Origin: Stanieria sp. NIES-3757
GTDB lineage: Bacteria > Cyanobacteriota > Cyanobacteriia > Cyanobacteriales > Xenococcaceae
DNA: 64,000 nucleotides
Reading direction: 5' to 3'
NCBI GenBank assembly: GCA_002355455.1
Contig: AP017375.1
Coordinates: 2,356,001-2,420,000 of the forward strand
A program made the translations under genes and the position numbers. The notes below the pieces were generated by a model. It saw only the letters and a program-made list of their open reading frames with translations, was not told where the DNA came from and searched no databases. Of this stretch, positions 51,368 through 52,992 are shown one piece after another; position 1 is the stretch's first letter; every line of letters begins with the position of its first letter.

Positions 51368-51970
51368 TTAAGGCAGAATTTCCTTACCAACTGCGCGATA
51401 TTTAGACCATCCCAAATGCGATCGCGGATCGGGAAAATCTTTGACAATCACACCACGACTGGGAGATCTTTCAAAAGCAACTAAGCGTGGTATATCTGCT
51501 TTAAACAAAGGTAGTTGACTTTCTTCTAGAAATTTTCTAGCTTCTCTGCCATTGATTGTACGAGAATCTACCTGAGTCAACAGAACTTTGTAATTGATCT
51601 TTAATGGTTCTAGTAATTCAACTGCTTTGAGTGTGGTATCTAGATCGAGGTGATTAGGAGTAGTTGGCAGAATCAATAGATCGCATCCCCTAGCCAAGTC
51701 TTCTAACTCTTCTGGTTCTGGTCTAGCTTGAGTATCTATTACTATATGAGTATATTTGGTAATTAATCCTGTAGAACCAGCTTGAGAAGCTACATAAAAA
51801 GGTAATTTATCCTCCTTTGACCAAACTAAAGCAGATCTATTTTTATCTGCATCAATTAATAGGGTGGGTGCTAGGGTTTGAAAATAAGCAGCTAAGTGAA
51901 TCGCTGTAGTAGTTTTACCTACCCCTCCCTTTAAAGCTGTAATCGCAATAATCATCGGCTGCTGACCCAA
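51368..51970 (-). CDS. Orphan ParA/Soj-type ATPase
   Basis: This 200-residue P-loop ATPase has the deviant Walker A KGGVGKT (14-20) and the Walker A' DAD motif in LLIDADKNRSALVW. The next switch is IVIDTQARPE. It is the short form without an N-terminal DNA-binding extension, as in many plasmid ParA and MinD-like positioning proteins. The Lys in KGG is present, so ATP-driven dimerisation is expected. No ParB or McdB gene is adjacent. The start may instead be the ATG at 51955. It lies in the repeat island, which suggests past movement. Confidence 0.85.
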   Translation of the reverse strand: MGQQPMIIAITALKGGVGKTTTAIHLAAYFQTLAPTLLIDADKNRSALVWSKEDKLPFYVASQAGSTGLITKYTHIVIDTQARPEPEELEDLARGCDLLILPTTPNHLDLDTTLKAVELLEPLKINYKVLLTQVDSRTINGREARKFLEESQLPLFKADIPRLVAFERSPSRGVIVKDFPDPRSHLGWSKYRAVGKEILP

Positions 51971-52043
51971 TATTTGGTAGTAGTAGTTTACCTGTAAGAA
52001 TGTTCGAGTTGACCAATAAATGTTGTCATCACGTAAAATATCT

Positions 52044-52078
52044 GTTACATTTATTTACATAAGTTAATAAAGTATAAG
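52044..52078 (+). promoter_or_regulatory. HLR1 (RpaB) operator and -10 box of the PsrR1-like RNA
   Basis: GTTACATT-TA-TTTACATA (52044-52061) matches the HLR1 consensus (G/T)TTACA(T/A)(T/A)-N2-(G/T)TTACA(T/A)(T/A) at every defined base. TATAAG at 52073-52078 is a likely -10 box. The operator covers the -35 region, the arrangement in which RpaB represses in low light and releases in high light. Confidence 0.75.
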
Positions 52079-52084
52079 AACAAA

Positions 52085-52211
52085 TATCTTTACTTGTTAT
52101 TTCAACCTTAAGCTCTCTTGCTGATAGCAAGACTATATGGTAGCTTTGGTATCTCGCGTCAACATTGATTTCTCCTGAATTGTGCCTCGGTGAGTTCCGA
52201 GGTTTTTTTTT
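52085..52211 (+). ncRNA. psrR1: PsrR1-like photosynthesis regulatory small RNA
   Basis: A gene-free ~127-base unit starts about 7 bases after a -10 box under a perfect HLR1 element. It ends in a strong terminator (CCTCGG at 52185-52190, CCGAGG at 52197-52202, then nine T). Its single-stranded part before the terminator carries TTTCTCCTGAAT, an anti-Shine-Dalgarno-like word. Length (about 130 nt), position of the pyrimidine-rich word and HLR1 control agree with PsrR1 of Synechocystis. That RNA is induced by high light and represses psaL, phycobilisome and chlorophyll-synthesis mRNAs. The exact start is inferred from the -10 box. Confidence 0.7.
52185..52211 (+). terminator. Terminator of the PsrR1-like RNA
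   Basis: CCTCGG and CCGAGG form a 6-bp stem around a TGAGTT loop, followed by nine T at 52203-52211. It overlaps the last codon of the convergent MBL-fold gene by two bases. Confidence 0.85.
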
Positions 52212-52992
52212 ATTTAGAATTAAGAACTCGAACTACAGTTCCCTCTGGGGGTAAATCCGTCGGTTTAATGGCAATACTATCAGTATTTAGCTTACTTACT
52301 GCTAATTCTTTAGTTAAGGCTAAGAATTCATCTACTGCAACCAAATCGCAATTTTTTTTATCAGCAGCAGCCGTTAGATATTGAGTAGGAATCACCACTT
52401 TGGGTTTTAAAACTCCAACTGCTTCTTTAGCTTCTTGAGGGTTATAAGCTTTTTCTCCACCACCGACAGGAACAAACAAAACATCGGGTTTACCCATCAA
52501 AATTTTATTTTCTAAACTAATCGGGGCTGCTGCACCACCTAAATGTAAAAGATTGACTCCACTTTGAGTCCAACGCCAAGCAATATTATTACCGAAACGT
52601 CTACCGCCTTCGCGGTCGTGAGGAATACTAATTCCTTGAAATTTTAGACCACTAATTTGATAATCTCCTGGTTCAGTTAAAATTCTAGGATTACCTGGAA
52701 GATTTTCGACCGCCCCTTCATCTAGTAAAAAACTGCTTACTAAAACTAAATCTGCTTCTACTTTAGGAACAGAATAACCTGCGGTACAACCAAGGGGACG
52801 GAAAGGATTAACTAAAACTCTTAAACCATTACCAGTAAATAAAAAGCAAGTATGTCCTAAAAATTTGATTGTTACCGCCTCACTAGTAGTTTGAGCGGTC
52901 GAACCTTGCCAAGATGAAGCCAAAATTGCCCCACAACTTGTTAGTAGAGTAGCTCCACCATAGCGCATTAACTGTCGCCGTTTCATAGTCAT
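52210..52992 (-). CDS. MBL-fold protein with Tat-like signal, degenerate active site
   Basis: This 260-residue protein starts with a twin-arginine-like signal (MKRRQLMRYGGATLLTSCGAIL). A metallo-beta-lactamase-like fold related to the UPF0173 (YtkL-type) group follows: IKFLGHTCFLFTGNGLRVLVNPF, then VEADLVLVSS, VDVLFVPVGG-like KPDVLFVPVGGGE and KPKVVIPTQYL. The normal THxHxDH metal motif is replaced by VSSFLLDEG. It may be a periplasmic or thylakoid-lumen structural or binding protein, not a hydrolase. It lies between the sRNA and trpG. Confidence 0.75.
   Translation of the reverse strand: MTMKRRQLMRYGGATLLTSCGAILASSWQGSTAQTTSEAVTIKFLGHTCFLFTGNGLRVLVNPFRPLGCTAGYSVPKVEADLVLVSSFLLDEGAVENLPGNPRILTEPGDYQISGLKFQGISIPHDREGGRRFGNNIAWRWTQSGVNLLHLGGAAAPISLENKILMGKPDVLFVPVGGGEKAYNPQEAKEAVGVLKPKVVIPTQYLTAAADKKNCDLVAVDEFLALTKELAVSKLNTDSIAIKPTDLPPEGTVVRVLNSK

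Follow-up and report, generated by a model that had tools for sequence, protein, structure and literature searches.

The window (the whole stretch of 64,000 nt of Stanieria sp. NIES-3757 DNA analysed here) contains, at 52058-52211 of its plus strand, what is confirmed as a free-standing PsrR1 gene predicted from sequence, with its own promoter and terminator. Taken singly, the locus is a further member of the known PsrR1 family. Its genome (G000; 5.46 Mb, cyanobacterial, congeneric with Stanieria cyanosphaera PCC 7437, G001) carries other copies behind psb34 or psb34-pgr5 genes, and the novel part would be this multi-copy PsrR1 family lying behind high-light-type psb34/pgr5 genes, an arrangement that we did not find described. 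It is highly probable, in our judgement, that the window holds a free-standing, RpaB-controlled PsrR1 gene whose RNA pairs with the starts of antenna genes and psaI, and that it is one of a five-copy family. What the sequences show is the family to which the RNA belongs, how promoter and HLR1 are arranged, the synteny and number of the copies, their linkage to genes, and complementarity to targets; the explanation would further involve binding of RpaB, induction by high light, a block of translation, and 3′-UTR copies that are cotranscribed and then released as small RNAs. The features concerned are:

51368-51970, minus strand: ParA-family ATPase gene, divergent, conserved as a neighbour, probably starting with the ATG at 51955
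52023-52028, plus strand: -35 hexamer TTGTCA, 17-nt spacer to the -10, a spacing common to the family
52044-52061, plus strand: HLR1 (RpaB box) GTTACATTTATTTACATA, perfect, over the -10 (exact pattern match)
52046-52051, plus strand: -10 hexamer TACATT, within the HLR1 and preceded by TG
52058-52211, plus strand: PsrR1 transcript of about 154 nt as predicted, from promoter geometry and analogy with SyR1 for the start and from the terminator for the end
52116-52132, plus strand: predicted 5′ stem-loop of 7 pairs (strand folding)
52129-52207, plus strand: PsrR1 family match (RF02701, 43.5 bits; model R1, 54.8 bits)
52159-52179, plus strand: conserved target-pairing core TCAACATTGATTTCTCCTGAA, complement of Shine-Dalgarno (SD) sequence and start codon (alignment)
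52184-52211, plus strand: intrinsic terminator, stem at 52184-52203 and then a T run (hairpin and T-run scan)
52210-52992, minus strand: MBL-fold (Lactamase_B_3) gene, convergent (PF13483, 181 bits), mostly not conserved here

The RF02701 (PsrR1) match was the only one above gathering in an Rfam covariance search of the 64 kb (E 8e-5, covering both strands and 4227 families), and its score is barely over the gathering threshold of 42; STnc480, DLEU2_4, and the other sub-threshold Rfam matches were far under theirs. Because the score lay so near the threshold, a second model (R1) was built from 91 PsrR1 sequences, all Rfam hits from other genomes, with both Stanieria genomes excluded. At the same interval it gave an E-value of 1.7e-11, the runner-up within the window scoring 16.2 bits. 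Since its training set consists of Rfam hits, R1 is not independent of RF02701, and gauges the fit to the PsrR1 family rather than the family itself. Among the 163 PsrR1 hits tallied below, both published SyR1 oligonucleotides (as printed in passages of PMC2662882) could be located at the PsrR1 hit in G125 and G142 only, which ties the comparison to an RNA verified by northern blot. An earlier sequence-only reading had proposed a PsrR1-like small RNA in a gene-free unit, to be checked with the Rfam PsrR1 model; the above-gathering hit bears this out.

The unit lies on the plus strand between the ParA-family and MBL-fold genes, both on the minus strand. That the transcript instead encodes a small protein is scarcely conceivable: the region does lie behind a promoter and holds one frame of 13 codons from ATG to stop, but this is the sole ATG-started frame in 52058-52211, and related copies keep the core while differing freely in how long their 5′ part is.

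The HLR1 pattern KTTACAWWNNKTTACAWW has a single exact match in the 64 kb, at 52044-52061 on the plus strand; shuffled windows averaged 0.03 exact matches, with one present in 3 of 100 shuffles. As a bare consensus, TTGTCA-N17-TACATT is at chance level (2 found in 51900-52400, 1.5 expected). Across the family the spacing is distinctive: among 134 PsrR1 loci with an HLR1-like site (at most 2 mismatches), TTGACA or TTTACA (at most 1 mismatch) stands exactly 17 nt before the TACAWW of the HLR1 in 71, while each other spacing from 8 to 26 accounts for 0-5. Further peaks at 27 (32 loci) and 30 (51) are taken to be neighbouring repeats. By eye, the SyR1 loci of G125 and G142 have a TTGACA-N17-TACTAT promoter, thus sharing the N17 spacing. 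According to passages of a 2026 review (PMC13421787), genes of the RpaB regulon that are repressed and then induced by high light have an HLR1 that overlaps the start region, between -38 and +23; the window HLR1 lies over the -10, inside this range, and was counted in favor of an RpaB-repressed PsrR1 gene. Its position fits repression by RpaB until high light.

Terminator-type hairpins were found once, against 0.3 expected, and the T run follows this hairpin on the plus strand only, so the terminator belongs to the PsrR1 unit and not to the MBL gene. Folding of the whole transcript was no better than that of shuffles (z -1.0 and -1.3). The exact HLR1, the -10 box (here joined by a -35 at 17 nt), the strong terminator, and the anti-SD-like word (TTTCTCCTGAAT, at 52169-52180) had all been named in the sequence-only reading and are all present.

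The core, CAACATTGATTTCTCCT, is complementary to a ribosome-binding site together with a start codon. Fifteen ORF-less copies (12 linked to parA, and three others) were aligned; by eye, the stretch TCAACATTGATTTCTCCTGAA is identical in 13 of them; one of the remaining two has two extra bases in the core and the other a substitution. The 5′ part varies widely in both length and sequence over the same alignment. Between the two Stanieria, 92 of 93 positions are identical over 52105-52197, compared with 176 of 201 third codon positions in ParA and 165 of 200 in the MBL gene; with an identity of about 94% at the ParA gene, the two genomes are so close that their agreement argues only weakly for selection.

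The neighborhood reaches further. Thirteen of the 27 family genomes (G000-G026), including that of the window, have an ORF-less PsrR1 with a divergent upstream ParA relative (70-100% identity). HLR1 at no more than 1 mismatch is found at nine of these 13 copies, the window copy included, and is missing at that threshold from the other four. The parA-linked PsrR1 locus is old. The MBL-fold gene that had been noted as adjoining is indeed there, but as conserved context it gives way to parA: an MBL relative lies downstream of just 3 of the 13 copies. Synteny with the MBL gene had been tried and rejected, since in none of 80 loci that surround MBL relatives did the PsrR1 model find a hit at E≤0.1; the Stanieria-only location that this result first suggested was overturned by the conservation of parA in 13 genomes.

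Candidate targets were sought genome-wide with the exact pattern AGGAGAN{0,2}TCAATG, the complement of the core, using the reversed pattern as control. G000 has 6 sites, against 4 for the control; one is the RNA gene itself, and of the 5 non-self sites four lie where psbL, psaI, cpeB, and a DUF2231 gene start (gene families confirmed), the fifth not being at a gene start. (The psaI start codon is 5 nt beyond the ATG of the pattern.) The S. cyanosphaera genome has 8 sites against 2 for the control; the same four genes are matched, and the other four sites are two PsrR1 copies, one plasmid ORF start, and one position inside a reading frame. The G000 count shows no clear excess over its control. 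The placement at starts is telling, within the limit that a pattern containing an SD sequence and an ATG favors start codons by design.

Duplexes of the core with start regions were scored as z-values against shuffled cores (ViennaRNA duplexfold, site accessibility not included), start codons being taken as the nearest in-frame ATG with an upstream SD-like word or, failing that, the nearest ATG, so that some may be wrong. For the window copy, the strongest values were those of two cpcB-like genes (-7.3 and -7.2; so called from their start, MLDAYTR), cpeB (-6.8), psaI (-6.4), and a further phycobiliprotein gene (-6.4), followed by the DUF2231 gene (-5.3) and psbL (-2.4). The 49 background genes of the window had a mean z of +0.25 and a lowest of -3.7. 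A set of fifteen, selected by gene family (12 for the phycobilisome, plus psaL, psaJ, and chlN), differed from this background with p = 4e-4; cpeB was scored apart from them because the pattern search had already found it. There were 16 phycobilisome-family matches, two without a locus, and L256 comes from the long ORF that L257 already represents, as a second piece of it; cpcA was not distinguished among the phycobiliprotein genes.

The targets listed for Synechocystis PsrR1 include psaL, psaJ, and chlN. None of these is predicted for the window copy (z 0.04, 0.8, and -0.85), nor are several phycobilisome genes. The repression of psaL expected by the sequence-only reading is thus not predicted here, and its expectation for phycobilisome genes holds in part, for several phycobiliprotein genes (the cpcB-like genes and cpeB) and not for several others. 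Of the leaders it had put forward for checking (psaL, cpc, and chlN), the cpcB-like ones fit and those of psaL and chlN do not, while psaI, the gene behind psaL, does.

In each of the two Stanieria genomes, the complement is found at the start codon of psbL and at that of the DUF2231 membrane-protein gene (L341 and L351 in G000; L350 and L348 in G001); both are possible new PsrR1 targets, as judged by complementarity.

The other four copies in the genome gave weaker contrasts (p 0.003 to 0.05) with partly different rankings: psaI ranks first for L002 (-4.5), and chlN reaches -1.9 and -2.1 for L002 and L263. These differences hint that the copies may divide the labor among them.

In the proposed mechanism, RpaB on the HLR1 over the -10 would block transcription of the window gene in low light; in high light it would leave, and the RNA of about 154 nt would be made. 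Its core, GCGUCAACAUUGAUUUCUCCUGAA, being the reverse complement of SD sequence, spacer, and AUG, would pair with the start regions of the mRNAs for cpeB, the two cpcB-like genes, the one further phycobiliprotein gene, psaI, and perhaps psbL, and this pairing would stop their translation. This would give cpeB, cpcB, and psaI as a testable set of targets, psaL being no fit in this lineage.

The element, described singly in the sequence-only reading, is one of five copies in the genome. Four were found by Rfam, at 60.3, 49.8, 43.5, and 33.1 bits (the last under gathering), and R1 adds a fifth, weak one (29.5 bits, E 0.004). The four other than the window copy lie behind psb34 or psb34-pgr5 genes, a search with NF033486 finding psb34 at all four; at two of the loci NCBIfam models gave 87.6 and 90.9 bits for Psb34 (ssl1498; NF033486) and 126 bits for PGR5 (ssr2016; NF049860). 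All four psb34 genes have a perfect HLR1 upstream. Psb34 is described as a photosystem II (PSII) assembly protein (PMC9458560); PGR5/ssr2016 is involved in cyclic electron flow and appears as an RpaB-controlled gene in a list in PMC12850537. By position, these four copies would be in the 3′ UTRs of HLR1-driven psb34 or psb34-pgr5 mRNAs, so that one high-light signal could yield proteins of PSII assembly and cyclic electron flow and also, out of the very transcripts that encode them, an antenna-silencing RNA.

The association of HLR1 with PsrR1 at psb34 extends beyond these loci. Over both Stanieria genomes, PsrR1 follows every one of the 8 psb34 genes that have a perfect HLR1 and none of the 4 full-length psb34 genes that lack it; on pSTA7437.02, PsrR1 also stands behind a truncated psb34 that lacks an HLR1, and five further NF033486 matches under the cut-off were not counted as psb34. 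Among 76 psb34 genes of 26 genomes (of 79 above the cut-off, 3 having been dropped for less than 160 nt upstream, and some of those kept having little downstream sequence), 27 have both HLR1 (at most 1 mismatch) and PsrR1, 9 HLR1 only, 6 PsrR1 only, and 34 neither (Fisher p 1.5e-7, ignoring relatedness, and with R1 training copies coming partly from the same genomes). In the orthologous psb34-linked pair L265/L268 there are many differences just behind psb34, while core and terminator agree except for one indel.

Elsewhere the ORF has been lost and the RNA has stayed. L159 (G016_C413) corresponds to L156 (G009_C121, of the same genus) minus the inside of psb34; at G049_C443, most of pgr5 is missing compared with another copy in the same genome; L020 (G003) has a stop within psb34, with PsrR1 at 59.8 bits; and L272, where PsrR1 scores 55.1 bits, has lost both its HLR1 and the psb34 start (N-terminus). 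The RNA can thus outlive the ORF, which suggests a possible route to a free-standing PsrR1 gene; the history may also have run the other way, from free gene to mRNA tail. For the window copy, derivation from a pgr5/psb34 unit is a possibility for which nothing convincing came out when its 5′ part was aligned to copies linked to those genes; the shared TTTACTTGTT is too short. It has no recognizable psb34/pgr5 remnant, and just upstream on the same strand there is no psb34, pgr5, or other fitting ORF.

These losses (G016_C413, G049_C443, L020, and L272) are comparable to what would have happened if the window locus were a decaying, functionless relic of an HLR1-psb34/pgr5-PsrR1 unit. We regard this as quite improbable: the parA-linked ORF-less copy has been kept in 13 genomes, with the HLR1 (at most 1 mismatch) in 9 of them and the core identical in 13 of the 15 aligned copies, and no psb34 or pgr5 ORF was found before the window copy.

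Over a set of 60 genomes, Rfam PsrR1 was detected at E≤0.001 in 27, including that of the window, 17 being over the cut-off; in a phylum-wide set, it was detected in 51 of 386, 47 being over the cut-off, and R1 at E≤1e-4 also finds 51 of 386. The tally covers 163 of 164 distinct places (the entry for G132 being inadvertently left out): 71 hits lie behind psb34, 9 behind psb34-pgr5, and 3 behind pgr5 (83 in total), 5 behind remnants, 47 are preceded by no ORF of this kind but by an HLR1-like site within 190 nt, and 28 by neither. Here “behind psb34” means a psb34-like ORF (phmmer E≤1e-3, with 7 representative proteins confirmed by NCBIfam) whose end lies at most 420 nt upstream, and in most cases no more than 40 nt; remnants, five in number, were labelled by hand, and L020 was counted as psb34. 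Weak R1 hits were left uncounted (L321, L329, L327, two beyond the first in L282, and an opposite-strand one in L020). A second large family with psb34-linked PsrR1 is Nostocaceae-like (G325).

RF02701 found nothing in 14 control genomes, among them Synechococcus elongatus. A 131-nt PsrR1 homologue is reported from that species (in a passage of PMC6091082), so that RF02701 seems to miss distant members. None of 6 position strings around three PsrR1 copies of G325 is printed as a transcription start site in the main text of a Nodularia dRNA-seq study (PMC3610870), where the tables consulted list the top 50 gene start sites and six ncRNAs.

The psb34-linked arrangement is also carried by plasmids. 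Among named plasmids (10 of 13 records), there were seven PsrR1 hits of 50.8-86.4 bits, each behind a gene of the ssl1498 (Psb34) family: on Stanieria pSTA7437.01 and.02 (NC_019749.1), and in Nostoc C057, MS1, and PCC 7524 and Tolypothrix PCC 7601 and 7910. The layout differs on pSTA7437.01, typed as conjugative in PLSDB, in that PsrR1 there follows psb34 together with a further small gene. Two Gloeothece plasmid loci scored 30-33 bits, and the same scan found no PsrR1 in Planktothrix. No Psb34 relative was found in viral contigs, leaving carriage by phage unsupported.

With 83 of 163 hits behind psb34 and/or pgr5, the motif could conceivably be mainly a cis element of high-light mRNAs, a terminator with an anti-SD sequence acting on the stability or translation of psb34/pgr5, with the free copies as by-products. 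We think this unlikely. Passages of PMC2662882 describe Synechocystis SyR1/PsrR1 as a separate RNA with no sign of cotranscription with the preceding gene; the predicted pairing of the window core with several antenna genes and psaI is far stronger than with background genes; and ORFs decay while the RNA stays. For the window copy, the trans-acting, RpaB-controlled RNA is preferred. A wider reading, which we find plausible without quite favoring it, is that PsrR1 is a movable 3′-end module of RpaB-controlled photoprotection mRNAs, multiplied, plasmid-borne, and freed by ORF loss, in the Stanieria family and the Nostocaceae-like one; the copies of such a module would come to share out antenna and photosystem I (PSI) targets.

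The closest known system is PsrR1/SyR1 itself (RF02701; Synechocystis sp. PCC 6803, fabF-hoxH spacer, about 130 nt), which has the core, the terminator, and the ORF-less state in common with the window copy; both are predicted to pair with phycobiliprotein and PSI gene starts. They differ in that the window HLR1 is perfect and over the -10, whereas the SyR1 loci have a 2-mismatch HLR1-like site starting at the -35, and in the core variant GCGTCAACATTGATTTCTCCTGAA, the parA neighborhood, the presence of five copies, and the prediction for psaL, psaJ, and chlN. A second comparison is with ApcZ, a 3′-end-derived small RNA of apcABC in Synechocystis that ends a photosynthesis mRNA; it is called the first 3′-end-derived small RNA of cyanobacteria in passages of the 2020 paper (PMC8136909). 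The four psb34-linked copies are alike in layout, and in layout only; the window copy shares no mRNA 3′ end, being free-standing with its own promoter, whereas the ApcZ promoter is inside apcC.

Passages on PsrR1 (e.g., in PMC2662882) treat it as a separately encoded high-light small RNA. Among the literature matches listed, none paired PsrR1 with psb34 or ssl1498, although a mention in Georg et al. (2014) is possible; among the best-ranked titles and abstracts, none was about multiple PsrR1 copies or a PsrR1 located in 3′ UTRs. Should the 3′-UTR copies be set free and function, a single mRNA would serve both to build up photoprotection and to silence the harvesting of light. Such a dual mRNA would exist in at least two cyanobacterial families and also be made from plasmids, and the route from mRNA tail to stand-alone small RNA gene, by ORF deletion with the RNA kept, would be visible.

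Some further features of individual loci may be mentioned. At L025 (G012:C236:16568 and 16763) there is a tandem PsrR1 pair, 195 nt from start to start, with no recognized psb34 or pgr5 ORF. The L004 copy (G000:C1:449796-452875), which is below the Rfam threshold at 33.1 bits, seems to carry an insert, rich in G+C and in part palindromic, that separates pgr5 from the PsrR1 core (about 1550-1650 of the locus). The psb34-PsrR1 units of L004, L280 (pSTA7437.02), and L279 (pSTA7437.01) all lie about 1.5 kb or less from a DOPA 4,5-dioxygenase gene (annotated on the plasmids, recognized by eye on the chromosome), and look as if they had moved together with it.
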